Shown here in pieces: positions 18,523-44,627 of a stretch of 64,000 nt of DNA (its first letter is position 1; every line of letters starts with the position of its first letter). Both the position numbers and the translations under genes were made by a program. The stretch is from positions 62,001 to 126,000 of the forward strand of contig JAQYVU010000003.1 of the NCBI GenBank assembly GCA_030145385.1, given 5' to 3'. The DNA comes from Desulfococcaceae bacterium. Its GTDB lineage: Bacteria; Desulfobacterota; Desulfobacteria; Desulfobacterales; Desulfosalsimonadaceae. Below the pieces are notes generated by a model. That model worked only from the letters and a program-made list of their open reading frames with translations. It was not told the origin of the DNA and did not search any database.

Positions 18523-19233
18523 TTAATGAATTTCTTTACCGGCCAGGAGCGCTGCCGGGTTTGTGTCAACTAAAAGTCGTGACGCTTCGGAGCCGATACG
18601 CTTTGCAGCTATTTCAGCCGCCTCGGACAGGACCGGGGTGCGAAATTTTTGGGAATGCGCATCCGAGGCAATAAAATCCACTTTTCCGGAATTCAGCAGA
18701 TAATCCGCACAATATTGAATGTCACCGCCGAAATCACCGGTGAGGCTGGCTGCGGTAATCTGGACGTAAATATTTTTGTTGAGAAGATTTAATAATAATT
18801 CCGGCGATCGGATGACGGAATAATTCCGCTCAGGGTGGGCAATGATCGGCTTGAGTCCCTTTGCAATGAGCCATGCAAGGATTTTTCCGGCAAAAGACGG
18901 CAGATGGTTATGGGGAAATTCAATCAGTGTATATTTCGTATTGTTGAGCGGATATTTCAATAGCAGGGCAGGGTCCAGACTGATGGATACTTCCGCGCCG
19001 GGGTGAATCTGAACCGGAATATTGTTTTGTTTTAACCGCCGGTTTAACCGGTCAACCTGCTTGATGATATCCTGGATGGTATATTTGTTGTCATAGACAT
19101 GGGGTGTTGCGATGATTTCACAAACACCATCCCGGTAAGCGATTTTTGCCATTTCCAGCGATTCATTAAAATCAGAAGCGCCGTCATCAATATCCGGCAG
19201 AATATGGCAGTGAACATCAATCATGCGGGGCAT
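18523..19233 (-). CDS. PHP-domain protein-tyrosine phosphatase (CpsB/YwqE type)
   Basis: Predicted Mn-dependent phosphatase of 236 residues that removes phosphate from the tyrosine-rich tail of the neighbouring Wzc-type kinase, cycling polymer export. PHP metal motifs are MIDVHCHILPDIDDGA (residues 4-19), IATPHV near 41, HPGAEV near 77, EFPHNHLP, PIIAHPERN near 131 and SDAHSQKFR near 196. Its ATG overlaps the kinase stop by one base (TAATG), a tight translational coupling that supports the kinase/phosphatase pairing. CpsB is best known from Gram-positives, but PHP-type partners also occur in proteobacterial loci. Confidence 0.9.
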   Translation of the reverse strand: MPRMIDVHCHILPDIDDGASDFNESLEMAKIAYRDGVCEIIATPHVYDNKYTIQDIIKQVDRLNRRLKQNNIPVQIHPGAEVSISLDPALLLKYPLNNTKYTLIEFPHNHLPSFAGKILAWLIAKGLKPIIAHPERNYSVIRSPELLLNLLNKNIYVQITAASLTGDFGGDIQYCADYLLNSGKVDFIASDAHSQKFRTPVLSEAAEIAAKRIGSEASRLLVDTNPAALLAGKEIH

Positions 19234-21440
19234 TATGAGGTGGTATAGTCGTTTTTATAGTAACCGTAAGGTCCATCATATTTGGAATAATATTGATGCT
19301 GTTTTTTTAAATCCACCGCATTGATGATTAAACCGAGCATTTCGGAGTTGATATCGGTTAGCATTTTATTCGCTTTGAAAACGGCATCATAAGTGGTTAA
19401 CCCGGAGCGGGTGACCAGTATGGTTTGCTCTGCAATTTTACTGATTAAATGGGCATCGCTGACATTAAACATCGGAGGAGAGTCAAAGATAATAAAATCG
19501 TAATTGTCTGATAAATCCGTGATCAGGTTGCTGAGCTTTGAGGAGCTTAACAGTTCGGATGGATTTGGCGGAACCGGTCCCGCAGGAGCAATATCCAGAC
19601 AATCCAACGCATCATGTTTGAAGATGGTGATGTCTGATTGGTTCGTCAGGTAAGTACTCAGCCCGGAGGTGTTGTCCAGGTTAAAAACTTTATGAATTCT
19701 TGCCCGGCGCATGTCTCCATCAATCAAAAGCACTTTTTTTTCAGACTGGGCGAATGAAATTGCCAGGTTGACGGACGTCGCGGTTTTCCCCACCCCCTGG
19801 TTCATGCTTGAAAGCAGCAGGCGCTTGGGAGCGCCGTCCGGTGAAGATAAAAGCACAGAAGTCCGTATGGCCTTATAGGCTTCGGATACAATTGAACTGG
19901 GGGCCTGTATGGTGATATTTTCAATTTTTTGGCCACTTTCCTTTAAAAGCGGTATCATGCCCAGAATCGGTAGACCCAGTCGTTCTTCCGCATCCTCTGA
20001 TGTCTTTACCGTATTGTCCATATGGTCCAGGAAAAAGGCCAGGCCGATTCCGGCTGCCAGGCTGAAGATAATGCCGATTAAAATAGCCCGTCTGGGTCCC
20101 TTGGTGATTGGTGAACCCGGCGGGTCCGCGCTTTCAACCACCCATACATCGATGGTCTGCTGTTGTTCAGTGATATCAAATTCCTTGATCCGGCTGAGCA
20201 GCCGGTCATATAAAAGGCGGTGGACTTCAACATCCCGGTTTAGAATCTCATATTGAATAAACTTGTCGCTCATAAAAGCGGCATTCTGTTTTGTCTGGTT
20301 CAGCAGCGTTTGAATGCTTTTTACTTTTTGCTGTGCCAGTTCATACCGGTTCTTAACAGATTGAATAACATTCTGTATTTCATTGTTAAGCTTGTCTTTC
20401 AATGTGTTTAAGTCTTTTTTTGCCCGGATCATTTTCGGATGCTTATACCCGATGCTTTTGGACAGGCTGGCGATTGCCTGTTCTTTGCTAATTATTTGAC
20501 GCCGCAATTCTTTTACGGTTTCATTGGCGGCAATGACCGGCAGATTCTGGGCCGCTTCCGGTGAGATTCGCTTAATTTCCTGGTACAATGATTCCAGTTC
20601 ATTGACTTCCGCCTGTGCCTGGGTCAGATTACTGCTGAACTGTGTTATTTTTTTGGGGAAAATCGCTTCCTGGTCGTCAATTGTATAGATATCGTGTATC
20701 TTTTTATATTCCCGGAGTTTTTTTTCGCTGTCTTCAAGCTTGGCCCTTTCAGAATCTGAATTGGTTTTCAGCCATTCAAGGGTTTGAGAGGTCGATTCCA
20801 GTTTCATCCCCATGAGCAGCTGCTTGTACGCAGAGGCGACGGTATTGACCACATCGGCTGCAAAAACAGGGTTGGTGGAAGAAAAACTCACATTAACGAT
20901 ATCACCTTTTTCCATATCGCTGTTAACAGTGATACCGTTTCGTACCATTTTTGCCAGCGCTTGCACTTTTTTGTTTTTTGTCTCTTCTTCAGTGGATTCG
21001 TTTTTTACGGTTTGAGCGGCGGAAGGTTCATTGTCAACGGTTCCGGACAGTTTCAGCACAACTGAATAAAGATTTTTAAACCAGTTGGTCACGTCCGTTG
21101 TAATGGATGAATCCTGTTTTTTATCCTGAAAATACCGGTTGTAAGTTTCATCAAGTCGCAGGGCTTCGACCACCCTGGTAGCGACCTTGCTGCTTTTGAT
21201 CAGCTGAGCCTGTGTGGATAGGAAATAAGGATCATAGCCGAAGCGATTATTTGATAGAAAAGAGGGGTCGTAATTGTTCTGGATTAAAAGTGTTGTGGTT
21301 GCCTTGTAAACCGGTGTGACGGAAAGTGCTTTGATTAAAATAAACGGAAGACTGACAAAAAAAACAAGCAGAATGATATTTTTTCGGCGAAGTAAGATGT
21401 ATAAATAGTCTTTAATATTTATTTCTTCTTCTCTGTTCAT
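19233..21440 (-). CDS. Wzc-type chain-length determinant/tyrosine autokinase
   Basis: Inner-membrane polysaccharide co-polymerase fused to a bacterial tyrosine kinase, about 735 residues from ATG 21440; a GTG three codons upstream is less likely. An N-terminal Wzz domain (INIKDYLYILLRRKNIILLV, first TM) is followed by long periplasmic coiled coils (~220-420). A second TM lies near residue 455 (RRAILIGIIFSLAAGIGLAF). The kinase domain has Walker A NQGVGKTATSVNLA, Walker A' VLLIDGDMRRARIH and Walker B FIIFDSPP. The C-terminus carries a tyrosine cluster (QHQYYSKYDGPYGYYKNDY), the autophosphorylation site. It is coupled to the phosphatase and lies downstream of the Wza-type exporter. Confidence 0.93.
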   Translation of the reverse strand: MNREEEINIKDYLYILLRRKNIILLVFFVSLPFILIKALSVTPVYKATTTLLIQNNYDPSFLSNNRFGYDPYFLSTQAQLIKSSKVATRVVEALRLDETYNRYFQDKKQDSSITTDVTNWFKNLYSVVLKLSGTVDNEPSAAQTVKNESTEEETKNKKVQALAKMVRNGITVNSDMEKGDIVNVSFSSTNPVFAADVVNTVASAYKQLLMGMKLESTSQTLEWLKTNSDSERAKLEDSEKKLREYKKIHDIYTIDDQEAIFPKKITQFSSNLTQAQAEVNELESLYQEIKRISPEAAQNLPVIAANETVKELRRQIISKEQAIASLSKSIGYKHPKMIRAKKDLNTLKDKLNNEIQNVIQSVKNRYELAQQKVKSIQTLLNQTKQNAAFMSDKFIQYEILNRDVEVHRLLYDRLLSRIKEFDITEQQQTIDVWVVESADPPGSPITKGPRRAILIGIIFSLAAGIGLAFFLDHMDNTVKTSEDAEERLGLPILGMIPLLKESGQKIENITIQAPSSIVSEAYKAIRTSVLLSSPDGAPKRLLLSSMNQGVGKTATSVNLAISFAQSEKKVLLIDGDMRRARIHKVFNLDNTSGLSTYLTNQSDITIFKHDALDCLDIAPAGPVPPNPSELLSSSKLSNLITDLSDNYDFIIFDSPPMFNVSDAHLISKIAEQTILVTRSGLTTYDAVFKANKMLTDINSEMLGLIINAVDLKKQHQYYSKYDGPYGYYKNDYTTS

Positions 21441-21493
21441 AAATAACACTCGCCCTTATTTGGAGTTGAAAAAATCATACGCAAACACTTAAA

Positions 21494-30186: not shown

Positions 30187-33100
30187 TTGAATTCAAAAAT
30201 GATAAATCAAAGCCGTAAAGGTTCAGTTCCGTTTTCAGTAGTCGCTTCATTATGCGCTACAATGGTTCATTCCTCTAAAAAAAACAGTCAGCTTACGAGA
30301 CTTGTATGCCTTGCGATCTTCGTTTTTATGGGGCTGACAATTTGGACTGGTCCTGCTTGGGCAGCGCTCAGTGTTGAGATTGTCAACGGATATAACCTGG
30401 TGGTGGATTCCAATGTCACTGCGCCTCCGACTTACGCTCCGAAGTCCGCCTACATAGGGGCCAGAATATGCAATACCGGGGATACCGCAATTGATGATGT
30501 TGTTGCGTATGTAGGTGATTATATTGATGGCTCCAATGATACACCTGGATATTTTCCGGTTCTGGACTCCGCTGCCCAGTCGGCAGCATGGGATACTGCT
30601 CACCCCCATATCGTTGACACCGGGAAATATTCCCTCACCATTGAAGCCGACGAAACCGGTGCGGCCGACGGCACCCGTTACATCGGTACCTTAGAACCCG
30701 GGGAATGCCGGATGCAATACTGGCTTTTTTCCTATCCCCAGTGTGTCAATGTCGACGCTGATGGTGACGGCGTTTACGAATCCAACTCAGATGATCCGCC
30801 CTGTGAGGTGAGTATTACCGGCGGCATTAAGCCGGAAGATGATCTGGTTTTAGATTATGATGTCTGGGCAACGACCAGCACCTCGGGCGTGTCAACGGCT
30901 GTTGAAACCCGTGATTTTACCATGCGCAATGAAATATCCGCATCTGCAAACAAAATCTGGCCCAATACCGACAGCAAGGTTCCCAACGAATACTTGGAAG
31001 CCATTGAATCCGTTATCGGTTGGGGAACGCTGGGCCCCGACGGTCAGCCGCTGTCGACCGGCAACCCGATTTATCCCGGGCAGCGGGTGATTACAACCCA
31101 GGGTATCTGGTATGATCTGGGCAATGTGGTTCATGGTTTTGACAATGACAATGATTTGATTGTCGATCAAAATGCCTGGCTCCAGCCCGTGGGCGATCCG
31201 GGGCTTTTTGATGCCGACTGTTTCCGGATGGTCCGGAATTACGGTATTGTCATTGTCAAGCTTAAAAGCGGCGGTGAAGCGCTGATTCCTTTTGAAGATC
31301 AACTCTACTTTATGAATCTTCCGGACAACACCGGCGTGGTGGGGCTTGTTTATTACCAGTTTATTGCCACGGACGAAGGGTGCAGCGCCGACATGACCCC
31401 ATACCAGGAAGCGGCATCCGGGTATGATAATGAAAAGTTTTCTTCCGATTACGGCCTCGGGCTTCAACTGTACAGCGGCTCATTCGGAACCGCCTTGAGT
31501 CTCACCAAAACAGATGGTCGTGCTTCCGCAAACGCAGGTGATACCCTGACCTATACGATAACCGCGACCAATGATAGTGGCGTTCATCTCGGGGCGCCGG
31601 ATCTGGGCGTTCCGTTGGTATTTGAGGATTTTATTCCAACGGGCACCACTTATGTTCCCGGGTCAGCGGATGACTCACCGGATACAAACCTGATTGAACC
31701 CACCGGTACCGGATCATATACTCAGGGGTATACGGATCGGGATGATAACCTTGATGAGTGTACGATTAATTATGAAGTGCCCCTGGGCGGTTCTTCTTAT
31801 GAAATATTTTATTTCAGTACCGCCGCCGCCACCTGGGATGAAACAGATATCACCTGGAGTGACACGGAACCGCCAACGCCGTCAGATGTCAAGGGTATTC
31901 GGTGGATGCTGATCACGGATATTAATTTGGATGGCAGCCATGACGGAGACGACTGTGTTGCACCGAATGGGACATACGATGACGGTTCCATTGAAACTTC
32001 ACTGCCGGCAGGCATGAGTACGACCATCAATTTTCAGGTCACCGTGAACAGCAATGGCGGCCCTATTATTTGTAATACGACTGGCTTGGGTTTTGGAGAG
32101 GCGAGTTCGGCAGTGGAAGCCGAAGACTGCACCCTGGTAACCGGAGATAACACCTTGAGCGGTACGGTGTTTAAAGATGATGGGGGAGGCGATGGCGGAG
32201 CCGGCATATACGGCAACGGCACTCAGGAGAATGGCATTGAAGCGGGCATCGGTGATGCCTCCGACGGGGTGAAGGTTACTCTTTATTATGATTTAAATGG
32301 TGACGGTGAATATGACAGTGGTGATATCCAGTATGATTTTGCCACTGCCGATACAAACGGTGATTACAGCTTTACAAATCTTCCTGATGGACCGTTTTTG
32401 GTTGTAGCTAAAAAATATGACGGCAGCCCCGCCCCTGGCGACAGCACCGATAACGCAGTAAACGATTTTAATGCGGGGTGGGGAAATACCACATCAGATC
32501 CTAACCTGCCAACTACCACGGATCAGGGCATTCTTAAAATGTCTGAGGATTCAACCACGGTTACTTTGTCGGTGAATATTGATTTGGACAACAGCGATTC
32601 AACCCCACAAGCAATTTCAAACGTGAATTTCGGATTTGCCCCGCCATTGGAATTAACCAAAGGTATCTCGGGTAATCCGGATATTGACGGGGATGTGAAG
32701 GCAGATAACCCCATCGACGAAGGAGATGTTTTTGATTATAGCATTACCCTGGCAAACCGCCTGCCCAGCGTGGGCGTCCAGGGACCCACAGGATGCGAAT
32801 ACACCATATGGTCGACTTCCGGGAGCACCGGATTAAATCCCAAAGATTTTGCGACACCGGAAAATGCCTACGATTCTTCCAGCCCCAACCGTACCACGGC
32901 CTCGGCCCTGGTCTCGGGCGGAGGGCTCCGGTGGATGCTTTTCGATGATTTTGCCATGTCCCAGAGGCCGGGCAATATCAGCAAAGTAGAGGGCCTGTTC
33001 TTCGGGTATTTTGACACCACCCTGACTGACGATTTCCTGGACATGGAGATCCGATATCCAGGGGAAACCGATGTAACTGCCACCATCAGCACCGCCCAGA

Positions 33101-36100
33101 TTGAAAGCTACGTGGGTGAGCCGTCCCTGGACATCAACAATGCCATCTCCTGGGACATTTCCACCCTCAAGCCCGGCGGGACAGGCGTGGTGGGAGACTG
33201 GGCTTCGGATTTTTCCGATTTTGAAAGCACGGACCTCTACATCAACCCCAGCAAAACGGCCTCGGCTGACCAAAAAACTTTTTATTTAGACGCTGCCGGC
33301 CTGCGGGTGACCATGGACGTGGACTGTGCCGCCGGCGAGTCCACCACGCTTAGCCCCGTTCCCCTGCAGGATACGTATGACACCACCCGGTTTGAGTTTA
33401 TTTCGGCTGACCCGGCCCCCACCTTGGTCAACACCTCCACCGGCGTTATCCAGTGGGACGACGTGGGTCCCATTTTGCCCGGCACTTCCACCACGGTCAT
33501 TGTCACCATGCGGGCTCTGGATGTGGACGGCACCATCACCGGGACCTGCTCCGGCACGCCTGACGGCTGCAACTTCGCCCGGACCGATTACGGCACCATG
33601 AACGTTTATTACGCCGATGGCCGCCAGGCCAATGACGACAATGACAACATTGCCGTAGACATTGTGGGCAAGGCTGAAATCCGGGGCACGGCATGGAATG
33701 ACACCAGTAATGACGGCTGGCCGGACAATGACGGTGAAGCAGGCCTTCCGTTTGTGGCGGTTTCCCTTTACGCCTGTGTGCAGGCCGACGGGAGCACTCT
33801 GGAAACAGGTTCTGCCAAAAAGACCTGTGAGGAAATGACTAATGGTAATTTCTGGGGAACCATTGCCACCACCACCACGGACGCCAATGGTGACTACGAA
33901 TTTCTGGGTCTGGATTCAGGTTATTACATCGTTGAAGTGGGAGACACGGATAGCGCTCCGGCCTCGGGGCCTGGGGGAAACAGCTCCCCCTTCAGCGGCA
34001 CCCAGACAGCGGAGCCGGACGACGACCAGAGCATCACATCCGCCGATGCGGACGCGCCCAACCAGACAACCTTCAATAACACTTGGGGTGACCCGGGCGT
34101 GGATTTTGAAGATAACCAAGGCAACCTGAACCTCAACTTCTTGAACGGCGTCACCGAGGAAACCGTCAATGGTGTGGATTTTGGTTACTACATCCCTACG
34201 GCCACTATTTACGGCAATGTATGGCACGACGTGGACGGAGACACAGTCACTGATGGGGGCGACAACGGCCTTCCCGGTTTCACGGTGAAACTCTATGATG
34301 ATACCGACGCTGACGGCGACCCCGATGGAGCGGCCGTTGACACGGTCACCACCGGCGCCAACGGCAATTATTTTTTCTCCGGGCTTTCGGCAGGCGATTA
34401 CGTGGTCGTGGTCACCCCACCCACCCTCCTGTCTCAGGTATGGGAAGAAACCGTGGAAAACACTGGCGGAACCACATCTCTGAACAACCAGATTCCGGTT
34501 ACCGGTTTATCAGCCGGAGAGTTTTCCGGGTCCCACAACTTTGGGTACACCCTGGATAAAACCGCCATTATCGGTGATACGGTTTATATTGATTTTGATG
34601 CTGACGGGATTCAGGATGCCACTGAAGATCCCATTGCCAATATCACGGTCTGGCTCTACAATGATGAGGACAGAGATGGAACCATAGACACCGGTGTGGA
34701 CGCCCTGATCGCCACCGACGTGACCGATGTAAATGGCAACTACCTGTTTGAAGGTCTGGGTCGGGGCAGCTATGTTGTTGTTGTGGATACCAATGACACT
34801 GATTTTCCGACCAATACCTTTGAGACAGCTGATCCGGATACCAATGCTGCCAGTATCGGCGACTTGATTTTTCTGGATGCGGACGGTGACGGAAATCTTG
34901 ATGCCGGCGAGGAAGGAATCCCCAATGTGGTGGTGCTTCTCTACGAAGATACCAATGGGAACGGAATACTGGATACTGCTGCTGATCAAATCATTGGCGC
35001 AAACGCAACGGACGTGAACGGTAATTATTTGTTTACCGCGCTCAATGCCGGCGATTATTTTGTAGATGTCGATGAAACCAGCCTGCCTGCATCGGATCTG
35101 TCCATCACCACCACCGATCCCGCAGCAACCTTGATATCCCTGTCCGATCGTACAATCAGCACGTCCGTTCTGACGGCCGATGCCGGCTACAGCCCCAGTT
35201 CGGGGTACGCGATTGGAAACCGGGTCTGGTCCGATGCAAATGGCGACGGGGTCCAGGATGCGGGTGAAGCCGGGATCAGCGATGTAGACATTTCGATTAC
35301 AGGCACTGGCTGTGCTCCCTGTAACGCGACTACAGATGAAAGTGGATACTGGATCGTCACGGGCCTGACCAATTTGGCGGTCTATTCCGTGGTTGTGGAT
35401 ACCGAAGACGTGAGTTCCACCTTTGCCATCACCACGCCCGGCGGTGACACCCAGAGCAAGACCATCAGTACAGCCGACGACATGAGCGCGGATTTCGGCT
35501 TTCGTTATGATGGGGATGGCGACGGCGTAGCCGATGAGGACGCTGGCGATCCCACCGGTGCCATTACGGGTAATGTTTTCCTGGATAGCGACGGAGATGA
35601 AACCTTGGATTCAGGCGAAGAGATGATCGGTGTAACAGTCAATCTGTTTGACAGTGATGGCAATTTGATTGCTACCACCCTCACGGACGCATCTGGCACC
35701 TACACTTTTACCGGAGTGCCCATCGGCCAATATGCTGTTCAGTCGGTGGATGCAACCGGAACACAATACAGCACCATATTCCTGGCCGCCGGAGAAGCGT
35801 TTACCGATTTAGATGTTATTTACAACGCCCTGAGCCTTAACCTGCCGGACAGCCAGAGTTCCGTCAGCGTGGGCGGGGTTTATGCCAATTTGATGCAGGA
35901 TTTTGGGTATCAGCGGTTTTTAGGCGCCATCGGCGATACGATATATCTGGATGTAAATGCAAATGCGGATCAGGATCTCGGCGAACCGGGTCTTGACGGT
36001 GTTTCAGTCTACCTTTATCTGTGGGATGATCTGGATAGCGATGGGGTGGTTGATGATGCCGATGGTGAATTAACCCTTGAGGCTACTGCGGTCACAACGG

Positions 36101-39100
36101 CCGACAATCCATTGACCGCTGAAGATGAGAGCGGTAAGTACCTGTTTTCCAATCTGGATGAACCGCCCACAGGTCAATATTATGTTGTGCAGGTAAATAC
36201 AGCGTCTCTTCCGGGAACCGGTTTTACGCTGATCGGCGATCCAGACACGGATGGCGTTCCTTGTACGGATTCATCTGCACCTGACGGGTGTGACAGCCTG
36301 CAGGTTGTGGACGGTTATTCGGCCGGCATCAACTACCTGGGAGCGGATTTCGGCTATCAGATCGACGGCGCAGACTATGCGGCTATCGGCGATTATGTAT
36401 GGATTGATACGGATGCCGACGGTGTGATTGATTCCGGAGAAGCAGGCATTCGTTATATTACGGTTTATTTTGATGCGGATAACGACGGAAGTCTTGACTG
36501 GACAGACGGAAACGGAAATGGGACATGGGATTCAGGTGAAGGTGAACAATGGGTTGAAACCGACACCAACGGTTATTACGTATTTACCGAACTTGCCGAT
36601 GGCACATATAATTATCTGAAAGTAGATACAAATGATTCTGACTGGCCAAGCGGACTGCCTACGATTCCGGTGTATGAGGTAAGAAGTGACAATGACGGTA
36701 GCCTTGACAGTTCTGCCAACGTGGTGATCAGCGGCGGCAATGTCACGAGCATTGTGGACGGTGATGGTGACACAACGGATACATGCATGGCGTGTAACCT
36801 GGATATTGATTTCGGATATCGATACAGTGGCACAAACACTTTAAGCGGAACTATTTGTCTGGATGATCCCAGTCTCAACGGATATTGCGGTTCCACAGCG
36901 ACAACTTATTCAGGGGTGGACAGCGCCGGCGGAGAAGCACCGTTAGCCGGTATTACCGCATCTTTTTATCAATGGACAGACACGGATAATGACAATCAGG
37001 CATGGGCGGTAGACGGCACTTTGGACTCCGGAGATTCCTTTACTTTTCTCGGAAGTACCAGTTCGGATGCGAACGGGGATTATTCTTATGATAATCTGCC
37101 GGATGACGTGATTGTCGTTTTCAGTGTTTCGGAAACATACAGCCTGGACCTGACCACCACCAATGGAAACACCAGTGTGGAGGGTGATGGTTTAAACAGC
37201 TATCAGCTTTATGAAGGAACCACCATTTATGATTTCGCCACAGTAACTATTTTCGGGCGCCAGGCTCTTAAGGATCTGGATCTGGACGCAGACAACAATA
37301 TCAAGGATCTCGATTTTGCGTTTGAAGGCCTGATCAGTTACGATTTCGGTGATTTGCCTGACAGCGGGGCAACTGACTATAATGCTACCTTGTTGACCAG
37401 CGGTGGAGCCCGGCATGTGGTTGCCGGTTCATCCATCTATTTGGGCACTGCCGCGGCCGGCGACGGAGTTTCCACTGAAAATGACGGAAGGGATAGTTCG
37501 GATGCGTCTGCCGATTCTAATGATGATGGTGTCACGCTTTTTTCTTCGAACTGGAATACATCAGGATATGCCAGCGTGACGGTCGAGGCATCAGCCGACG
37601 GCTGGGTAGCCGGTTGGATGGATTTTAACGGAGATGGTGACTTCAGCGACGCTGAGGAAAGGATTGTTAACCAGGCGGTGACTGCCGGAGACAACCTGGT
37701 TTCATTTTCTGTTCCTGATATTGCAGGAGGGACATACCAGTTCAACGCCCGTTTCAGGATTTATCCGGAAGAGCCGGTACTGGTTTCCTACACAGGTACC
37801 GCTCTGAACTCATCATTGCAGCCGACAACCGGTGAAGTGGAAGATTATCAATGGACAGCGGTCGTCACTTACGCGTCTGTAGCCTCTTTTACGTCATACG
37901 AAAGCAATGGCAATGTGATTTTAGAATGGGAGACATCCACCCAGATCGGTACATTGGGGTTTCACGTGGTACGCCTGGAAGCAGAAGGCAAAACGGTTCA
38001 GGTAACAGACCATCCGGTCCCGGCGCTTGTGTTTCCCAATGGCGGGGTTTACCAGTGCATTGATCGTTCGGCAGAATCGGGCGGGACATATACATACCAG
38101 CTCGTTGAACTGGAAGCGTCCGGCAGAAAGCGTACATACGGGCCGTATACGGTCAGTGTCGGCACCCGTTCAAAAGCCCTTGATCAAGAAGCATACGCCA
38201 GCCTGTTCAGGGATGGGTACTCGCGTCAGCCCCGCGAAATGTTTTCGCAGCAGTCACAACCGGTGGCGGTCATGGAAGCATCAACAGAACAATTAACCGC
38301 CGATGCCTGGAAAGTAAGCCGGGCAGCTTCCGGATTTAATGTGGCATCCCGAACCCTCATGGCGGCTGAACCTCAGGAATCGCTTGCCGGTGTGCGGGAA
38401 GTTAAAATTAAAATTACAGATGCCGGTCTTTACAAGGTCGACGCCGGCGCTCTGGCGACTGCACTCAATGTTTTTGAAGATGATGTGCTGGATGTGATTG
38501 CCAAAGGACAACTCCGGCTGTCCAGCCTGGGCAAACCGGTGGCTTACTTTCCGGCTGAAGACAACAGCAGTATCTATTTTTACGGCCAGTCCCGCCCATC
38601 AATCTATACAGACAGCAATGTTTACTGGCTGAAGCTGATACCGGGCTCGGAAAAAGGGGATTTAAACGGTGACGGCGTTGTGGATAACCAGGATTTTGTG
38701 ATCTGTATGGATATCCTGACCGGTAAACCCGGCCAGGACTTGCGTGCGGATTATGAGACATCCGGTGCGGATGTTTCAGGCAATGCCCGGGTGGATATGG
38801 CTGAAGCCGCCTACATTCAGGATGTCCTGTTAGGTATTATGGGATCAGTGACCGGCAATACGCCGTCTGAGGCCGGAGAAGGTAAATCGTTTGCATCCAC
38901 GGTTCATTTTGAAAAAGAGGTGTATTTTAAGACGGATTTACCGGTTGATGTTGAAGACTTCTGGTTCTGGGAAAAGTATACCCTGGGTGTCCCGGATTAT
39001 GGTTCATGGCCAGAATATTATCCTGATTTTAACCCCTTTCAGATTGACGTTGGAGAAGTGATGCCCGGCAGTTCTCATATTGCGGAGCTGACGGTGCATT

Positions 39101-40689
39101 TTCACGGTTTCAGCAATCACCCGCACCAGGCGAAAGTCACATTAAATTTTGGTGCTGCCGGTGAACTGTACCTGGGGGAAGTATCCTGGAGCGGATATGA
39201 ACCGGTCTCAAAGATTTTTTCATTTAACCAGCAGCAGTTAGCGGAGGGAATCAATACAATCAAGGTCGAAAGTCTGAAAACAGATGACGCGTTTGGCGTT
39301 GATTCCTTTGACCTGACCTATCAGCGGTTATATATCGCTTCAGAAGACAGCCTGCATTTTCATTCCGGGGAAAATGATGTGATTGCCGTGGGAGGGTTTA
39401 CAGGGTCGGATATTTTTCTTTTTGACCTGACGAATCCGAACCGCCCGAAACGAGTCTCAAATGCGGCCATCGATACTGTCAATAATCTGGTGACATTGAT
39501 GCCGGATACCTCTGAAACACCGTATCTGGCGCTTCGACTTTCAGCGGCCAAAGTGCCGGCATCAGAAGATATTATAGCAGATGAACCGTCTGATCTCAAG
39601 AACGATGCCAATGCTGCCGCTTACCTGATTATTACGGCAGATGAACTTTCAGCAGGTGCAATGGCTCTGGAAGCATACCGCATGGATAAATTTGCCGGAT
39701 CAACAAAAGTGGTAAAATTATCGGATATTTTTGATGAGTTTTCTCACGGGATATATGACCCGTACGCAATTAAAAAATTTATAGTCCATGCGAAGAATAA
39801 CTGGGCCAAACCGCCGCAGTATGTGGTTCTTGTGGGGCATGGTACATATAATTACAAGCGATATCTGGAGAAGTTTAATACGGAATACTTTGGTAACCCC
39901 TTTTATGATACGATTAATTTATTGCCGGTGATCATGACCAGTACACCGTTTGGTAAATATGCTTCGGATAATTTATACGGGGATGTAAATGGGGACGGCA
40001 TGCTGGATCTTGCCATTGGCCGGATTCCGGCAAAAACGGATGCTGAGGTTTTGGCATATGTCATAAAATTAAAGTCCTATGAGAAAGGATTGGATCCAGG
40101 AAATAATCATGTGATGATGCTTGCAGATAATCCGGACCCGGGCCCGTTTAATAATTTTCCTGCGGACAGTGATGATGTGATAGCGCAGTTTTTAGGAGAT
40201 TATTCATTTGGAACCATATACTATCCCGGTAAAACAAAAGATGAAATGAACAGTGCGTTTGCTGCCGGTGTAAAGGATGGTGCCTGGCTGGTCAATTATA
40301 TTGGCCATGGCGGGTATGATGTGATGTCGAATTTTTATGAAAACAGCTATGTGGGGTCGCTGGAAAATACTCAGTATCCGATTTATGTGGCCCTGACATG
40401 CCTGGCAGGTGATTTTTCATTTCCCTTATTCGACTCGCTCAGTGAGACATTGGTACTAAAGAGCAATGGTGGTATGATTGCCGCGTGTTCTCCCACAGGC
40501 CTTTCAGTTAACAGTGAAGCTGTGAAAATGAATAAAAAGTTGTTTGAGGCCTTTTTTGAAGAACAGGACATGGGCGGCGCTGTCAAACGCGCGATTGCGC
40601 TTTATAAGGCGGATGGAGATTTGCCGTTTCCGTATATGATTGATGTGTATAATCTTCTGGGTGATCCGGCGCTGGAAATTAAACAATAA
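30187..40689 (+). CDS. Giant secreted SdrD-like repeat protein with C-terminal C25 (gingipain-type) cysteine protease
   Basis: About 3,500 residues. Starts TTG 30187, ATG 30199 and ATG 30262 are possible; the last gives the most normal signal peptide (LVCLAIFVFMGLTIWTGPAWA). Order: unique N-terminal region; DUF11-like segment near 440; about ten SdrD/Cna-type B repeats (~655-2370; pattern IGDxVWxDxDxDGxxDxGE); GEVED domain (~2381-2557, ending TTGEVEDYQW); a linker; dockerin-like calcium segment (~2821-2884, GDLNGDGVVDNQDF); peptidase C25 (~3100-3495). The catalytic His is in NYIGHGGYD (~3370) and the nucleophile Cys in ALTCLAGDFSFP (~3404), matching the gingipain H and CxxGDF pattern. It probably acts outside the cell. 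Codon use turns clearly GC-richer at about 32.75-34.5 kb. The RiPP operon begins 25 nt downstream. Confidence 0.85.
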   Translation: MNSKMINQSRKGSVPFSVVASLCATMVHSSKKNSQLTRLVCLAIFVFMGLTIWTGPAWAALSVEIVNGYNLVVDSNVTAPPTYAPKSAYIGARICNTGDTAIDDVVAYVGDYIDGSNDTPGYFPVLDSAAQSAAWDTAHPHIVDTGKYSLTIEADETGAADGTRYIGTLEPGECRMQYWLFSYPQCVNVDADGDGVYESNSDDPPCEVSITGGIKPEDDLVLDYDVWATTSTSGVSTAVETRDFTMRNEISASANKIWPNTDSKVPNEYLEAIESVIGWGTLGPDGQPLSTGNPIYPGQRVITTQGIWYDLGNVVHGFDNDNDLIVDQNAWLQPVGDPGLFDADCFRMVRNYGIVIVKLKSGGEALIPFEDQLYFMNLPDNTGVVGLVYYQFIATDEGCSADMTPYQEAASGYDNEKFSSDYGLGLQLYSGSFGTALSLTKTDGRASANAGDTLTYTITATNDSGVHLGAPDLGVPLVFEDFIPTGTTYVPGSADDSPDTNLIEPTGTGSYTQGYTDRDDNLDECTINYEVPLGGSSYEIFYFSTAAATWDETDITWSDTEPPTPSDVKGIRWMLITDINLDGSHDGDDCVAPNGTYDDGSIETSLPAGMSTTINFQVTVNSNGGPIICNTTGLGFGEASSAVEAEDCTLVTGDNTLSGTVFKDDGGGDGGAGIYGNGTQENGIEAGIGDASDGVKVTLYYDLNGDGEYDSGDIQYDFATADTNGDYSFTNLPDGPFLVVAKKYDGSPAPGDSTDNAVNDFNAGWGNTTSDPNLPTTTDQGILKMSEDSTTVTLSVNIDLDNSDSTPQAISNVNFGFAPPLELTKGISGNPDIDGDVKADNPIDEGDVFDYSITLANRLPSVGVQGPTGCEYTIWSTSGSTGLNPKDFATPENAYDSSSPNRTTASALVSGGGLRWMLFDDFAMSQRPGNISKVEGLFFGYFDTTLTDDFLDMEIRYPGETDVTATISTAQIESYVGEPSLDINNAISWDISTLKPGGTGVVGDWASDFSDFESTDLYINPSKTASADQKTFYLDAAGLRVTMDVDCAAGESTTLSPVPLQDTYDTTRFEFISADPAPTLVNTSTGVIQWDDVGPILPGTSTTVIVTMRALDVDGTITGTCSGTPDGCNFARTDYGTMNVYYADGRQANDDNDNIAVDIVGKAEIRGTAWNDTSNDGWPDNDGEAGLPFVAVSLYACVQADGSTLETGSAKKTCEEMTNGNFWGTIATTTTDANGDYEFLGLDSGYYIVEVGDTDSAPASGPGGNSSPFSGTQTAEPDDDQSITSADADAPNQTTFNNTWGDPGVDFEDNQGNLNLNFLNGVTEETVNGVDFGYYIPTATIYGNVWHDVDGDTVTDGGDNGLPGFTVKLYDDTDADGDPDGAAVDTVTTGANGNYFFSGLSAGDYVVVVTPPTLLSQVWEETVENTGGTTSLNNQIPVTGLSAGEFSGSHNFGYTLDKTAIIGDTVYIDFDADGIQDATEDPIANITVWLYNDEDRDGTIDTGVDALIATDVTDVNGNYLFEGLGRGSYVVVVDTNDTDFPTNTFETADPDTNAASIGDLIFLDADGDGNLDAGEEGIPNVVVLLYEDTNGNGILDTAADQIIGANATDVNGNYLFTALNAGDYFVDVDETSLPASDLSITTTDPAATLISLSDRTISTSVLTADAGYSPSSGYAIGNRVWSDANGDGVQDAGEAGISDVDISITGTGCAPCNATTDESGYWIVTGLTNLAVYSVVVDTEDVSSTFAITTPGGDTQSKTISTADDMSADFGFRYDGDGDGVADEDAGDPTGAITGNVFLDSDGDETLDSGEEMIGVTVNLFDSDGNLIATTLTDASGTYTFTGVPIGQYAVQSVDATGTQYSTIFLAAGEAFTDLDVIYNALSLNLPDSQSSVSVGGVYANLMQDFGYQRFLGAIGDTIYLDVNANADQDLGEPGLDGVSVYLYLWDDLDSDGVVDDADGELTLEATAVTTADNPLTAEDESGKYLFSNLDEPPTGQYYVVQVNTASLPGTGFTLIGDPDTDGVPCTDSSAPDGCDSLQVVDGYSAGINYLGADFGYQIDGADYAAIGDYVWIDTDADGVIDSGEAGIRYITVYFDADNDGSLDWTDGNGNGTWDSGEGEQWVETDTNGYYVFTELADGTYNYLKVDTNDSDWPSGLPTIPVYEVRSDNDGSLDSSANVVISGGNVTSIVDGDGDTTDTCMACNLDIDFGYRYSGTNTLSGTICLDDPSLNGYCGSTATTYSGVDSAGGEAPLAGITASFYQWTDTDNDNQAWAVDGTLDSGDSFTFLGSTSSDANGDYSYDNLPDDVIVVFSVSETYSLDLTTTNGNTSVEGDGLNSYQLYEGTTIYDFATVTIFGRQALKDLDLDADNNIKDLDFAFEGLISYDFGDLPDSGATDYNATLLTSGGARHVVAGSSIYLGTAAAGDGVSTENDGRDSSDASADSNDDGVTLFSSNWNTSGYASVTVEASADGWVAGWMDFNGDGDFSDAEERIVNQAVTAGDNLVSFSVPDIAGGTYQFNARFRIYPEEPVLVSYTGTALNSSLQPTTGEVEDYQWTAVVTYASVASFTSYESNGNVILEWETSTQIGTLGFHVVRLEAEGKTVQVTDHPVPALVFPNGGVYQCIDRSAESGGTYTYQLVELEASGRKRTYGPYTVSVGTRSKALDQEAYASLFRDGYSRQPREMFSQQSQPVAVMEASTEQLTADAWKVSRAASGFNVASRTLMAAEPQESLAGVREVKIKITDAGLYKVDAGALATALNVFEDDVLDVIAKGQLRLSSLGKPVAYFPAEDNSSIYFYGQSRPSIYTDSNVYWLKLIPGSEKGDLNGDGVVDNQDFVICMDILTGKPGQDLRADYETSGADVSGNARVDMAEAAYIQDVLLGIMGSVTGNTPSEAGEGKSFASTVHFEKEVYFKTDLPVDVEDFWFWEKYTLGVPDYGSWPEYYPDFNPFQIDVGEVMPGSSHIAELTVHFHGFSNHPHQAKVTLNFGAAGELYLGEVSWSGYEPVSKIFSFNQQQLAEGINTIKVESLKTDDAFGVDSFDLTYQRLYIASEDSLHFHSGENDVIAVGGFTGSDIFLFDLTNPNRPKRVSNAAIDTVNNLVTLMPDTSETPYLALRLSAAKVPASEDIIADEPSDLKNDANAAAYLIITADELSAGAMALEAYRMDKFAGSTKVVKLSDIFDEFSHGIYDPYAIKKFIVHAKNNWAKPPQYVVLVGHGTYNYKRYLEKFNTEYFGNPFYDTINLLPVIMTSTPFGKYASDNLYGDVNGDGMLDLAIGRIPAKTDAEVLAYVIKLKSYEKGLDPGNNHVMMLADNPDPGPFNNFPADSDDVIAQFLGDYSFGTIYYPGKTKDEMNSAFAAGVKDGAWLVNYIGHGGYDVMSNFYENSYVGSLENTQYPIYVALTCLAGDFSFPLFDSLSETLVLKSNGGMIAACSPTGLSVNSEAVKMNKKLFEAFFEEQDMGGAVKRAIALYKADGDLPFPYMIDVYNLLGDPALEIKQ

Positions 40690-40714
40690 TAAAATATGGG
40701 TTGTTTTATAAAAT

Positions 40715-41017
40715 ATGGAAGAATTAATGATCTCCACTGAGCATGTTTTTAAAAAAAATGAAGACGTTGTTACCCGGAAGATTGCTGACCAGTTGATTCT
40801 GGTGCCGATTAAAGGGAATGTCGCAGATATGCAGCGACTGTTTATGTTGAATCCGGTGGCAGAATTTATCTGGCAACAACTGGATGGTAAATGTTCCGTT
40901 GCAGTAATTTGTGAGCAAATTGCAAATGGCTTTATTGTTGATCAGCAAAACGCTGAAAAAGATGCGTTTGAATTTATCGGACAATTGATAGATTTTCAGT
41001 TAATCAATGAGGTCTGA
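40715..41017 (+). CDS. PqqD-family RiPP recognition protein
   Basis: 100-residue winged-helix RiPP recognition element that should bind the precursor leader and present it to the radical SAM enzyme. The family pattern is visible: KNEDVVTRKIADQLILVPI, then LNPVAEFIWQQLDGKCSVAVI and a C-terminal FIGQLIDFQLI helix. Length is typical. It begins 25 nt after the giant protease gene; its stop is followed two bases later by the radical SAM start, with GAGG as ribosome site at the junction. Function follows from the family and the neighbouring precursor. Confidence 0.9.
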   Translation: MEELMISTEHVFKKNEDVVTRKIADQLILVPIKGNVADMQRLFMLNPVAEFIWQQLDGKCSVAVICEQIANGFIVDQQNAEKDAFEFIGQLIDFQLINEV

Positions 41018-41019
41018 TT

Positions 41020-42117
41020 ATGGAAGGCCTATGTCAAACACAGCAGGATGTTGACCTTTCGTATCTTGCTTTTGCTCGAAGAGTTTTAAAGGAAAGAATC
41101 CCCATAAGCGGTGATATTGAAATTACGAGACAGTGTAACTTTAATTGCATTCATTGCTATTTAGGGGAAGCATCGAAACGCCAGGAATCATCTGCTGATG
41201 AATTAACCACGCAACAATGGATCAATATTATTGATGAATTGGCTTTGGCCGGGTGCCTTTATCTGCTCATTACAGGAGGAGATCCCCTGCTCAGAAAAGA
41301 CTTTGAGGTGATTTATGTTCATGCAAAAAAGAAAGGACTCATTGTTACTGTTTTTACCAATGGCTCCTTAATATCAGGGGCAATTATTGAACTCTTCAAG
41401 GAATATCCGCCCTACAGTGTTGAAATAACTTTGTACGGCGCATCTGAAAGCACCTATCAGGCCGTTACCGGCCGATCGGGGATGTATGAAAGATGCCTGT
41501 CAAGTATTGAAGCATTGATTAGCGCAGGGATTCAGACAATGCTTAAAATGATTCTGATGACTGAAAACCAGCATGAATTTGAATCCATTCAAAAACTGGC
41601 TGAAGATTTTGGGGCCAAATTTCGTTTTGACGGCATGATTTTTCCCTGCCTGAATGGCGATCCCGGGCCGATTGCATATCGTGTTCCTCCTGAAAAAGTC
41701 GCGGAACTCAACTTGTCTTCTGAAAAGCTTATTGACGATTGGGAGCAGACAAAAGAACGGATGAAGCATATTCCAGCTTCAGACTCGTTATATTCTTGCG
41801 GGGCGGGTGTTACTAATTTCCACATTGATTTTTTCGGACTGCTGAAACCCTGTATTCTGGCGACAGACGTTACGCATAACCTGTTAAACGGATCATTTAA
41901 TGATGGATGGCATCATATCATACCAAAAATCAAGAAAAAGAAAAATCCCCTTGAATTTGAGTGTAAAAATTGTGAAAGTCAACTATATTGCGGATTTTGT
42001 CCGGCTTTTTTCCGGCTTGAGACAGGATCCGAAACCGAAGTGTCAGAATATCTCTGTCATATTGGCAAAATAATGAATGAAAAGATTCGTGAAAAAAAAG
42101 TAGCAGGAGCAAGCTGA
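41020..42117 (+). CDS. Radical SAM/SPASM peptide-modifying enzyme
   Basis: 365-residue maturase. The radical SAM cluster motif CNFNCIHC is at residues 39-46 (CxxxCxxC), followed by SAM-binding LLITGGDPLLRKDF near 86. The C-terminal SPASM region holds seven cysteines: C-x13-G-x4-C (CGAGVTNFHIDFFGLLKPC), then CKNC-x5-CGFC and a last Cys in EYLCHIG, enough for auxiliary iron-sulfur clusters. Such enzymes form thioether or C-C bonds, or epimerise residues, on ribosomal peptides. The precursor core has cysteines but no aromatic residues, so a Cys-based thioether is the best guess. Its stop lies 1 nt before the precursor ATG, with AGGAG upstream. Confidence 0.92.
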   Translation: MEGLCQTQQDVDLSYLAFARRVLKERIPISGDIEITRQCNFNCIHCYLGEASKRQESSADELTTQQWINIIDELALAGCLYLLITGGDPLLRKDFEVIYVHAKKKGLIVTVFTNGSLISGAIIELFKEYPPYSVEITLYGASESTYQAVTGRSGMYERCLSSIEALISAGIQTMLKMILMTENQHEFESIQKLAEDFGAKFRFDGMIFPCLNGDPGPIAYRVPPEKVAELNLSSEKLIDDWEQTKERMKHIPASDSLYSCGAGVTNFHIDFFGLLKPCILATDVTHNLLNGSFNDGWHHIIPKIKKKKNPLEFECKNCESQLYCGFCPAFFRLETGSETEVSEYLCHIGKIMNEKIREKKVAGAS

Positions 42118-42118
42118 C

Positions 42119-42313
42119 ATGTCTGAATCGATTGAAAAAGAAAAACAGCCTTATAAAAAACCGAGTATTACAGTCGTCGATCTGGCGGCTGATGAAGTGC
42201 TTGCGGTCGGTTGCAAGACTGGTAGTTCCGGGCCACCCGGGAAAAATCCGTCCCCAATTCCTCCGAACAGCTGTATGGGGCCGCTAACTCCCTGCGTGAG
42301 CCAGGGGTCATAA
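42119..42313 (+). CDS. Candidate RiPP precursor peptide, Cys/Pro/Gly-rich core ending in Ser
   Basis: 64 residues. Residues 1-~31 form a charged, leader-like half (EKQPYKKPSITVVDL, then AADEVLAVG). Residues 32-64 form a core with cysteines at 32, 52 and 59, eight prolines and seven glycines/serine runs (CKTGSSGPPGKNPSPIPPNS; CMGPLTPCVSQGS). There is no aromatic residue in the core and the last residue is Ser. The KPxIxxxDLxxxEVLAxGCK arrangement is that of leader peptides bound by PqqD-like proteins. ATG 42119 starts one base after the radical SAM stop with AGGAG ~10 nt upstream. Only one precursor gene is present. The product is unknown; I do not recognise a characterised peptide. Confidence 0.8.
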   Translation: MSESIEKEKQPYKKPSITVVDLAADEVLAVGCKTGSSGPPGKNPSPIPPNSCMGPLTPCVSQGS

Positions 42314-42331
42314 TTTTTTAGTTGGTACATC

Positions 42332-43243
42332 ATGGAATATCTTTTCCCCATAGCTGGGATTCAATTCAAAGTTAATGCAAAAAAAAAATTATTGCCGGCA
42401 TCATCATTACATTATGATATCAGTCGGCAATTTTTTTTTAAAAATGATGCCAAAGACCCCATTGATTTCATTGATGTTTATTTGACAGATAAAGCCGCAC
42501 CTCATACTGATCGGTTTGATCGAATCTTTGACAGTCAAAGTTCATGGGCAATTTATGCTCTTCAAGAGGATTTTTACATAACCGATCAATATCCGCCATA
42601 TAATTCACCTGTCTGGGTTGCCCGGGTTCATACCAAAGAGAATCAGATAACTTTATACTGTTCCAGCCAGATCATAGATCAGCACAAAAAACAGCTTAAG
42701 TTTAACCCGTTCACCTACCCGTTGGATCAGATTCTGTTGATGAATTATCTGGCAGATCGTGAGGGGAGTATTTTTCACGCTGCCGGTTGGGTATATAATG
42801 ATCAGGGAGTTGTTTTTGCAGGTAAATCCGGTGCAGGGAAAAGTACGATTTCCAACCAGCTTCATAAATTGAATCCGGGGATGATATTAAGTGACGATCG
42901 TATTGCGATTAGAAAAATCGGGGATTCTTTTTTAATGTACGGTACCCCGTGGCCGGGTGAGGGCAGATTCGCGGTAAATCAGTCGGCCCCGTTGAAGGCG
43001 CTGTTCTTTTTAGAGAAAGGGGAAAAAAATCAAATTGCCGCCTTGACATCATCCGATGCTTTAGCAAGGCTCTTTCCAGTGATGTCCATTCCCTGGTATG
43101 ACAGGGGTAAAGTGACAAAGATGATGGTCTTTTGTGAATCATTACTGGCAGGAATACCGATGTATGAATTGACCGTTCGTGCGGATGAAACTGCCGCTGA
43201 TTTTGTTAAAGACTTTATGGATGGGGAAAAACCAATTGCCTGA
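42332..43243 (+). CDS. HPr-kinase-like P-loop protein of the RiPP operon
   Basis: 303 residues with the P-loop fold of HPr serine kinase/phosphorylase. The P-loop is GKSGAGKST near residue 163-171, preceded by EGSIFHAAGWVYND. SDDRIAIRK near 187 matches the catalytic SDD segment, and YGTPWPGEGRFAVNQSAPLK near 205 resembles the HprK-type C-terminal motif. The first ~135 residues are a poorly conserved beta-rich domain. HPr itself is not encoded nearby, and homologues in lasso-peptide clusters phosphorylate the C-terminal serine of the precursor, so the precursor's terminal Ser is a plausible substrate. It starts 18 nt after the precursor stop. Start ATG 42332 has a weak ribosome site. Confidence 0.82.
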   Translation: MEYLFPIAGIQFKVNAKKKLLPASSLHYDISRQFFFKNDAKDPIDFIDVYLTDKAAPHTDRFDRIFDSQSSWAIYALQEDFYITDQYPPYNSPVWVARVHTKENQITLYCSSQIIDQHKKQLKFNPFTYPLDQILLMNYLADREGSIFHAAGWVYNDQGVVFAGKSGAGKSTISNQLHKLNPGMILSDDRIAIRKIGDSFLMYGTPWPGEGRFAVNQSAPLKALFFLEKGEKNQIAALTSSDALARLFPVMSIPWYDRGKVTKMMVFCESLLAGIPMYELTVRADETAADFVKDFMDGEKPIA

Positions 43244-43718
43244 TGACGGACAAATTATTCATGCCGGCGGGAATTTTGGAAAAGATAAGCTTTTTTCAGG
43301 CATGCTTAAAGACGGGTATGATCTTCGGCTGCAGGTGACAGGATCCAGTATGTCGCCTTTCATAAAAACAGGCAGCTATGTTACCCTTTCCAGGGATCCG
43401 GTTTCAAAATTAAAAATCGGGGATGTTGTTTTTTGTGGCTGTGATGACGGGTCATTTAAATTACATCGGCTGATTCAGATTAAAAATAAAAGGCTGATTA
43501 CCAAAGGAGATGCCCTCTCGTCAAATGATGCCCCGTTTAAAAAAACAGATTATCAGGGTAGGGTGATCCGTGTTGAATATCAATGTTCTCAGACTGTTAG
43601 AAGCCGAAACCTGGAATTGCGTTCCGCCCGGATGACAAATTACCTGATTGCCGTTTACTACCGTTTAAAATTGTTCCTAATATGTAAATATATCAGTTTG
43701 AAATCTGAAACAGCATAG
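43221..43718 (+). CDS. S24/S26-family signal-peptidase-like protein
   Basis: 165 residues from ATG 43221, which overlaps the kinase-like gene by 23 nt; the frame is open further up to 43179. The nucleophile serine is in VTGSSMSPFIKTGSYVTLSR. A second block, FKLHRLIQIKNKRLITKGDA followed by LSSND, fits the Ser-His-Asp arrangement of the archaeal/ER-type signal peptidase I (HR...TKGD...D), not the bacterial Ser-Lys type. The hydrophobic C-terminus (YLIAVYYRLKLFLICKYI) may hold it at the membrane. In this operon it could remove the leader or process the exported peptide. Substrate unproven. Confidence 0.78.
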   Translation: MGKNQLPDDGQIIHAGGNFGKDKLFSGMLKDGYDLRLQVTGSSMSPFIKTGSYVTLSRDPVSKLKIGDVVFCGCDDGSFKLHRLIQIKNKRLITKGDALSSNDAPFKKTDYQGRVIRVEYQCSQTVRSRNLELRSARMTNYLIAVYYRLKLFLICKYISLKSETA

Positions 43719-43949: not shown

Positions 43950-44627
43950 ATGAGAGAGATCCATTCACACGAGCGCCAGCAGTTTGAAAAACTGTTTAAG
44001 CAGGAAAAAATTGACCGGTTTGACGACCGGTTCAAGATGCTGGAAGTTTTTCTGCAGACCGAACAGCATGTTACGGTCAATTCTCTATGGCTGATATTAA
44101 AAGATAAAAAGATTTCTTTAGCCAGTGAATTTATCGAAGAAACCCTTGAACTCATGTGCCGGTTCGGATTCGCACAGAAAAACAGATTTGATGATGGTAT
44201 TGTTCATTATGAACACCGGCATTTGGGACAGCATCATGATCACATGATCTGCACCAAATGCGGCAAAATTATTGAATTTAAAAATGACCAGCTCGAACAG
44301 CTTCAGTCTCAGGTGGTATCGGGTTTCGGTTTTCATATGCTTCAGCACCGGATGGAAATTTATGGAATTTGTGCGGATTGTTTAAAATCCCGGGAACAGC
44401 AGATGCCGTTAATATCTGCCAGGCAGGGAGAACAGGTCATTATTAAAAATCTTGTCGGCGGGAATAAAGCCCGTATGCGCCTTTTAAGCATGGGCTTGCG
44501 CGTTGGTGATGAGCTTGAGGTGATCACCAACAACGGTCAGGGGCAATTGGTGGTTGCGGTTGGTTTTCAGCGCTATGTGCTGGGTCGGGGAATGTCCCAG
44601 AAAGTTATTGTGGGGCCGAAGGAATAA
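43950..44627 (+). CDS. Fur-family repressor fused to a FeoA domain
   Basis: 225-residue fusion. Residues ~1-150 are Fur-like: a winged helix (FKMLEVFLQTEQHVTVNSLW), the metal/dimer segment HHDHMICTKCGKIIEF near 92, and a second CxxC (CADC near 139). Residues ~153-225 are a FeoA SH3-like domain (QVIIKNLVGGNKARMRLLSM, then GLRVGDELEVITN and LGRGMSQKVIV). FeoA normally binds FeoB at the membrane, so the fusion may link the regulator directly to the ferrous-iron transporter. A free FeoA and FeoB follow, with a promoter/inverted repeat upstream. Both halves look intact. Confidence 0.9.
   Translation: MREIHSHERQQFEKLFKQEKIDRFDDRFKMLEVFLQTEQHVTVNSLWLILKDKKISLASEFIEETLELMCRFGFAQKNRFDDGIVHYEHRHLGQHHDHMICTKCGKIIEFKNDQLEQLQSQVVSGFGFHMLQHRMEIYGICADCLKSREQQMPLISARQGEQVIIKNLVGGNKARMRLLSMGLRVGDELEVITNNGQGQLVVAVGFQRYVLGRGMSQKVIVGPKE

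Follow-up and report, generated by a model that had tools for sequence, protein, structure and literature searches.

A conserved RiPP-type gene cassette and its genetic coupling to C25 peptidase genes in a Desulfococcaceae bacterium and other phyla

The gene cassette described here lies in a 64,000 bp window of DNA from a Desulfococcaceae bacterium (assembly GCA_030145385.1, contig JAQYVU010000003.1, positions 62,001 to 126,000). The genome comprises 5.2 Mb in 209 contigs, and the window is on C39. Five genes follow each other on the forward strand. In brief, they encode a PqqD-like recognition element (RRE) of the kind that serves ribosomally synthesized and post-translationally modified peptides (RiPPs) (40715..41017), a radical S-adenosylmethionine (SAM)/SPASM maturase (41020..42117), a precursor peptide of 64 aa (42119..42313), an HprK/PEPCK-fold kinase presumed to act on a C-terminal Ser (42332..43243) and an S26 archaeal-type signal-peptidase-like protease, the presumed leader peptidase (43221..43718 from an ATG, the longest open reading frame (ORF) starting from a GTG at 43179). 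The genes are spaced by 2, 1 and 18 nt, followed by a 23-nt overlap. A first-pass annotation had proposed these five ORFs with this spacing as a candidate RiPP operon, and both were verified. Its boundaries, 40715-43718, proved too narrow. A gene for a giant C25 protein of 3500 aa (30187..40689, TTG start) ends upstream on the same strand, with 25 bases (40690-40714) between its stop and the start of the PqqD-like gene, and most likely belongs to the same unit.

The gene set, its conservation, the catalytic residues, the predicted fold and the genomic coupling to C25 genes were established by computation; L numbers denote fetched loci and G numbers surveyed genomes, G000 being the genome of the window. 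A search with the HprK-like protein matched 45 of the 194 genomes of the order, and in the fetched regions the PqqD-like, radical SAM, small-ORF and HprK genes recur together. The small ORF has no family match in Pfam or NCBIfam. A profile of it, which has the window's own copy among its rows, found the window's precursor at 5.9e-21, well beyond chance, and gave matches in 22 of the 194 genomes of the order (own included) and in 35 of the 389 genomes of the class (34 besides own). The genome-neighbourhood check that the first-pass annotation had proposed shows the small ORF conserved next to the radical SAM and PqqD genes, across phyla. It is strongly supported that the five genes form a conserved RiPP-type cassette, in which the same five parts, from precursor and RRE to maturase, kinase and peptidase, are found together in different phyla.

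The precursor of the window has a leader running from YKKPSI to EVLAVG, Cys at positions 32, 52 and 59 and a C-terminal Gly-Ser. The first-pass annotation described the core as having three Cys and eight Pro and as lacking aromatics. The Pro count and the lack of aromatics hold for the part after the Cys-Lys (CK) pair, but the three Cys are those of the whole peptide, with C32 sitting in GCK and only C52 and C59 following it. In an alignment of 19 small ORFs, Y12, P15, L22, C32, C52 and C59 are invariant and the C-terminal Ser, overlooked at first, is nearly so. Three of four homologous precursor pairs have a ratio of nonsynonymous to synonymous differences (pN/pS) of 0.12-0.16 (pN 0.04-0.08, pS 0.32-0.48) and the fourth one of 0.43 (pN 0.13, pS 0.30); the precursor is under purifying selection. 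The freedom from aromatics belongs to this peptide and does not extend to the family as a whole. No core aromatic position is conserved in the family, however, and a conserved aromatic cyclophane is disfavoured for that reason.

The terminal Ser is present in 83 of 92 precursor rows of a wider set, which includes contigs fetched twice (L114, L117, L127), rows cut by contig ends (L109, L140) and weak rows admitted with E values as high as 0.01 (e.g. L148, L165, L184). After removal of duplicates it is found in 26 of 29 C25-linked rows, 28 of 32 unlinked rows with a single radical SAM gene, 24 of 26 rows with several and all five without a radical SAM gene in the stretch, these classes overlapping slightly. 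The three C25-linked rows without it are the Chloroflexota loci L131-L133.

The PqqD-like protein scores 49.5 bits against PF05402 (cut-off 23.4) and is the sole PqqD match in its genome. Of 88 precursor loci, with the window and three duplicate contigs counted, 83 have a PqqD match. In L049 (6869-7468) a PqqD-like domain and the precursor share one reading frame, a natural RRE-precursor fusion.

The maturase scores 90.8 bits against PF04055 (cut-off 29.5). It carries the CxxxCxxC motif together with the SPASM cysteines of radical SAM/SPASM RiPP maturases, and C39, C43, C46 and the seven further Cys (C260, C278, C315, C318, C324, C327, C346) are invariant in 14 of 14 and 19 of 19 aligned rows. 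Its predicted structure (predicted local distance difference test score, pLDDT, 87.0) has its closest matches in SuiB, SkfB, anSME and 5wgg, the last a thioether enzyme. These Z scores lie so close together (24.5 to 22.7) that the reaction cannot be named from them, and the fold comparison separates neither thioether formation, C-C cross-linking nor other chemistry, so that the Cys thioether to an alpha, beta or gamma carbon that marks sactipeptides and ranthipeptides is not singled out. The only matches pointing to a defence system were viperin-like matches of the maturase, and this link was dropped. Six cassettes (L043, L044, L046, L047, L049, L050) lack a local radical SAM gene. We considered from these that the Cys residues might be independent of the radical SAM enzyme and rejected the idea, as four of the six genomes (G088, G190, G030, G183) encode a cassette-type enzyme elsewhere (361-422 bits), in G030 approximately 10 kb upstream of the cassette and beyond a giant gene. 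G125 and G075 have no cassette-type radical SAM match above 119 bits.

The Pfam match of the HprK-like protein is below the cut-off (19.1 versus 33.3 bits), and so is that of the S26 protein (21.6 versus 23.3 bits; sigpep_I_arch 42.8 versus 51.85), so both are assigned by alignment and fold evidence. HprK was not among the PDB matches of the kinase in a phmmer search, and we therefore turned to a fold search. The predicted structure (pLDDT 89.4) matches PEPCK with Z 13.3 over 244 aligned residues (root-mean-square deviation 5.2) and HprK/P in Foldseek with E 6.5e-6; on this model, the kinase has a PEPCK/HprK fold. Among 112 aligned kinases, some of them from loci without a precursor match, H149 and K170 of the window's kinase are conserved in all, D188 in 93 and D189 in 92. 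The His-Lys-Asp-Asp motif and a C-terminal Ser on the precursor, both marks of the lasso-type Ser kinases, are thus found together here. By analogy, the kinase is presumed to phosphorylate the precursor's C-terminal Ser, and this conserved residue is likely the phosphate site. A phage link of the kinase was dropped, the trace being a single weak tblastn match.

The Ser-His-Asp triad of the S26 protease, numbered from the GTG start, is kept at Ser57 in 68 of 69 rows and at His96 and Asp111 in all 69. By analogy we presume that the protein is the leader peptidase. In L051 (4226-5254) an S24/S26-type protease match is fused with a GNAT acetyltransferase domain.

The giant C25 protein has a signal-peptide-like N-terminus, with a hydrophobic stretch recognized by hydropathy only, and is apparently secreted. 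SdrD_B/CarboxypepD_reg/DUF11-type repeats, a GEVED domain and a weak Dockerin_1 match (21 bits, below the cut-off of 22.9) are followed by the Peptidase_C25 domain at residues 3146-3497 (Pfam 3.7e-68, 230.9 bits, cut-off 23). The catalytic His and Cys of C25 peptidases are invariant in 17 rows, and a profile of these rows gave PorU (6za2, 3.4e-37) and RgpB (1cvr, 8.5e-29) as best sequence matches in the PDB. The protein thus resembles PorU and the gingipains in its domain, its catalytic pair and these matches. It differs in falling below the cut-off of the NCBIfam PorU model (NF033707; 186 versus 420 bits), in the giant repeat region ahead of the domain and in being encoded together with a RiPP cassette. 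A very long repeat region is found in the linked C25 proteins of the window and of L104. A second C25 gene of the same genome (G000:C5:28923-29969, L194) encodes a PorU-like protein of 842 aa, has no adjoining cassette and has close relatives in G105, G160 and G217 (same genus) and in G248.

We counted C25 genes at 85 distinct precursor loci, 84 fetched and that of the window. At 29 of these the stretch contains a C25 gene, which never lies on the opposite strand. It is upstream in 26 of the 29 (window included), where the distance to the closest cassette gene after it ranges from -97 to 284 nt, and in three Chloroflexota loci it is positioned after the kinase. C25 genes occur in 29 of the 35 precursor genomes of the class, with 1-4 matches each. 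A profile of the C25 subfamily (417 bits or more) matched 14 of the 194 genomes, the next best scoring 279 bits, and all 14 are among the 22 with a precursor (Fisher 4e-16); it should be noted that 10 of these 14 contributed to the profile, which was built mostly from linked proteins, so that the agreement is partly circular. The four genomes outside the profile (G175, G154, G008, G014) all carry a precursor, and in the last three the C25 gene lies away from the cassette.

In a tree of 55 C25 domains, 26 cassette-linked rows, with two identical pairs from contigs fetched twice, form one starred clade together with five unlinked rows. These five come from G154, G236, G008, G014 and G105, all precursor-bearing. 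Many unlinked rows of the tree were drawn from precursor genomes, and the profile search is the fairer test. A quick maximum-likelihood tree, computed for 57 radical SAM enzymes, places the Chloroflexota C25 type inside a half that is mostly free of C25. Because of this placement and the different gene order, a second origin is suggested, and the C25 pairing probably arose in two separate lineages. C25 genes are also found with HprK, PqqD and radical SAM genes but no precursor match in L116, L164 and L183. In L195 (2304-12366) and L201 (4119-12132), from the same genus, they are found with diverged HprK, PqqD, S26 and radical SAM genes in other orders. In L194 and L195 the PorU-like C25 proteins carry a Gly-rich GCFI tail at the C-terminus, perhaps a sorting signal.

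The nearest known systems are the SynChlorMet (SCM) cassette, the linear polyphosphorylated peptides (LPP) and the paeninodin-type kinases, and none is matched in full. The SCM cassette (ScmA-F) unites PqqD-like, HprK-like and radical SAM/SPASM genes, as does that of the window. An SCM assignment was rejected, since the SCM models of NCBIfam are all far below their cut-offs (ScmD 36 of 100, ScmC 27 of 125, ScmE 83 of 400, ScmF 73 of 400). Relatives with several radical SAM genes (L054, L057) resemble SCM in make-up, whereas the cassette of the window has one such gene and a C25 partner. In SCM-like cassettes of this multi-enzyme kind, from several phyla, HprK and radical SAM matches share one long ORF in L145 (9110-11125), as they do in L139, L151, L155, L160, L167, L168, L172, L174, L185, L188 and L191. 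Nor does the 'HPr-rel-A system' named in the first-pass annotation apply, HprK_rel_A scoring 19.0 bits against a cut-off of 200.

According to PMC13381572 (Nat Commun 2026), LPP are made in Bacillota by SpI, RRE and HprK enzymes; discrete RREs bind a [Y/W]xxP leader motif, and mutation showed that the Ser-His-Asp triad of LppS is needed for RRE-assisted leader cleavage. An archaeal-type SpI peptidase with this triad, a discrete RRE, a YxxP leader and an HprK-like kinase are common to LPP and the cassette. LPP has four of the five parts and lacks the radical SAM enzyme; 'radical SAM', 'rSAM', 'SPASM' and 'Desulfo' are absent from the paper's main text (PMC13381572). Of the LPP leader motif YxxPxVLxHQxIxFETxxS, the window's family keeps YxxP and differs in the rest. 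LPP core genes include a nucleoside triphosphate (NTP) transferase and an MsbA exporter, and phosphorylation is on core Ser3, whereas in the cassette the precursor has three Cys and a conserved C-terminal Ser, a radical SAM/SPASM enzyme is encoded and C25 is a partner. Phmmer searches with three seeds each found neither an NTP transferase nor an MsbA-like exporter among the window's ORFs of at least 100 aa.

Paeninodin and pseudomycoidin provide the precedent for a C-terminal Ser phosphate. According to a review (PMC9266682), PadeK phosphorylates this residue, lasso kinases need a His, the P-loop Lys and Asp-Asp, and PsmN adds a hexose onto the phosphate. Likeness to PadeK, ThcoK and PsmK extends over the HprK-like kinase, the His-Lys-Asp-Asp residues, the C-terminal Ser and a PqqD-like B1 (PMC9266682 and PMC5067487). 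Unlike lasso clusters, the locus has a radical SAM enzyme, and neither a cyclase C (asparagine-synthetase-like) nor a B2 protease was found among the cassette and flanking genes read (giant protein, Fur-FeoA, FeoA, FeoB, ClpB-like), the rest of the genome being unsearched. NTP_transf_5, whose pseudomycoidin counterpart is PsmN, is encoded near some of the cassettes.

From the protein families and conserved residues we infer RRE binding, maturation, phosphorylation and leader removal. The PqqD-like RRE would bind the YxxP leader of the 64-aa precursor, and the radical SAM/SPASM enzyme would modify the core with its Cys residues, the most likely change being a cross-link based on Cys. The HprK-fold kinase would then phosphorylate the C-terminal Ser, and the S26 protease, assisted by the RRE, would remove the leader. 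We further hypothesize, on the gene coupling alone, that the product serves the C25 protein: the mature phosphopeptide may act on, or be joined or processed by, the PorU/gingipain-like protein encoded with it, and would then be a dedicated ligand, an inhibitor/activator or an anchor, not a free antibiotic. Taken together, a C-terminally phosphorylated, radical-SAM-modified RiPP whose product serves the C25 peptidase is in our judgement probable, with considerable room for doubt. PorU performs an anchoring reaction, and in a more specific form the phosphopeptide would be a substrate of the PorU-like C25 enzyme. The latter would cut the giant adhesin or another protein encoded nearby, for instance the choice-of-anchor-U protein described below, and join it to the RiPP, whose phosphorylated C-terminal Ser, probably glycosylated in some taxa, would tie the protein to the surface. 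We hold this elaboration to be improbable.

Several observations weigh against a C25-serving product. At 33 of the 85 precursor loci no C25 gene is present although the upstream sequence extends to 3 kb or more, so the core pathway does not need one; another 23 end at a contig edge too early to judge. Counting every kind of C25 gene, 47 of the 194 genomes have at least one, and 28 of these 47 have no precursor. Three of the 22 precursor genomes (G106, G138, G183) are without any C25, and G082 has the cassette but no subfamily C25 (best 67 bits). To these are added the partial circularity of the profile and the fact that the second origin is read from a quick radical SAM tree, with Shimodaira-Hasegawa-like approximate likelihood ratio test (SH-aLRT) support only and many weak forks. 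The Chloroflexota precursors of L131-L133 are without the terminal Ser although their kinases keep the His, the Lys and two acidic residues. Of the 112 kinase rows, 20 have Glu for the second Asp and 19 have another residue for the first (Glu in nine). The S1-pocket Asp of RgpB (Asp163) has no clear counterpart in the C25 rows, so specificity is not readable. Finally, no exporter stands beside the C25 type, which bears on how the peptide would meet a secreted enzyme. The exporter counts themselves are evidence in favour of the C25 reading: counting only loci with enough downstream room, and with a p value that ignores relatedness, an MsbA-like exporter lies within 5.5 kb downstream at none of 19 C25 loci versus seven of 16 single-radical-SAM loci without C25 (p 0.0017); for multi-radical-SAM loci without C25 the count is three of 16.

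The missing exporter would also fit a scheme in which the C25 enzyme is only the last maturation protease and the peptide a secreted antimicrobial or signal trimmed outside the cytoplasm. Such trimming agrees with the shared operon layout and the intact active-site His and Cys, and a Lys follows the first Cys, as a possible gingipain-type site, in 24 of 29 C25-linked precursors. Precursors without C25 have the same Lys just as often (27 of 32), and the three C25-linked Chloroflexota rows lack it. Cleavage after CK was rejected as evidence on this ground and because the RgpB S1 Asp cannot be aligned confidently. An S26 leader peptidase is already present, and a trimming enzyme would have no need of a very long repeat region. 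Because some linked C25 proteins have such regions and CK is not specific to C25 loci, we favour a ligand, regulator or anchor, and regard trimming as unlikely. Alternatively, an LPP- or SCM-like phosphorylated peptide pathway might work alone, with C25 a frequent neighbour that moved along. The core cassette is indeed widespread without C25, and in Bacillota LPP are the product of these very enzymes, SpI, RRE and HprK (PMC13381572). The constant strand, the probable two independent origins and the co-occurrence even where the genes are unlinked make a mere neighbour improbable.

A redox cofactor precursor as for PQQ or mycofactocin, largely degraded to a small modified core, would account for the PqqD and SPASM proteins and for the weak similarity of the maturase to the NCBIfam models for AhbD (109 bits, cut-off 500), mycofactocin (95, cut-off 265) and PqqE (69, cut-off 381). 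Without a conserved aromatic in the core, with Cys and the C-terminal Ser conserved instead, and with a protease rather than a dehydrogenase as partner, such a cofactor is very improbable. It is scarcely credible that the small ORF arises by chance: it is short and matches no Pfam or NCBIfam family, but it is present in 35 of 389 genomes, adjoins the same enzyme genes in the fetched loci and is subject to purifying selection.

The gene directly upstream of the C25 gene (27172-29955, forward strand) encodes a 927-aa protein with choice-of-anchor-U domains (NF041766) at two places and a C-terminal SGCFV motif. Relatives of it lie by the cassette in L033 and L038 and near a C25 gene in L208, and it also matches part of the C25 protein of L195. 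Further upstream, 14049-21449 holds polysaccharide genes (glycosyltransferase 4, Wzy-like, Wzz/AAA); capsule loci of Bacilli also house SpI-bearing clusters, according to PMC13381572. Downstream of the cassette, 43950-44627 (forward strand) encodes one protein that fuses a Fur repressor with a FeoA domain, followed by feoA and feoB.

A literature search over openly licensed papers gave no description of a C25 gene paired with RiPP genes, and the terms C25, signal peptidase and HPr are absent from PMC10885120 and PMC12710340. The frequent placement of the cassette beside a C25 gene suggests an undescribed partnership. RiPP clusters are usually read as sources of free antibiotics, signals or cofactors; here, in different phyla, such a cluster shows genetic coupling with a gingipain/PorU-family cysteine peptidase that is large and apparently secreted. 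Should the peptide serve as regulator, inhibitor or anchor of the C25 protein, RiPP chemistry would be linked to surface proteolysis or protein anchoring. In the substrate form of this reading, a ribosomally made peptide would replace a lipopolysaccharide acceptor as the surface anchor. If a role in serving C25 is true, the HprK/PqqD/S26/radical SAM cassettes of many uncultured bacteria would gain a directly testable role.

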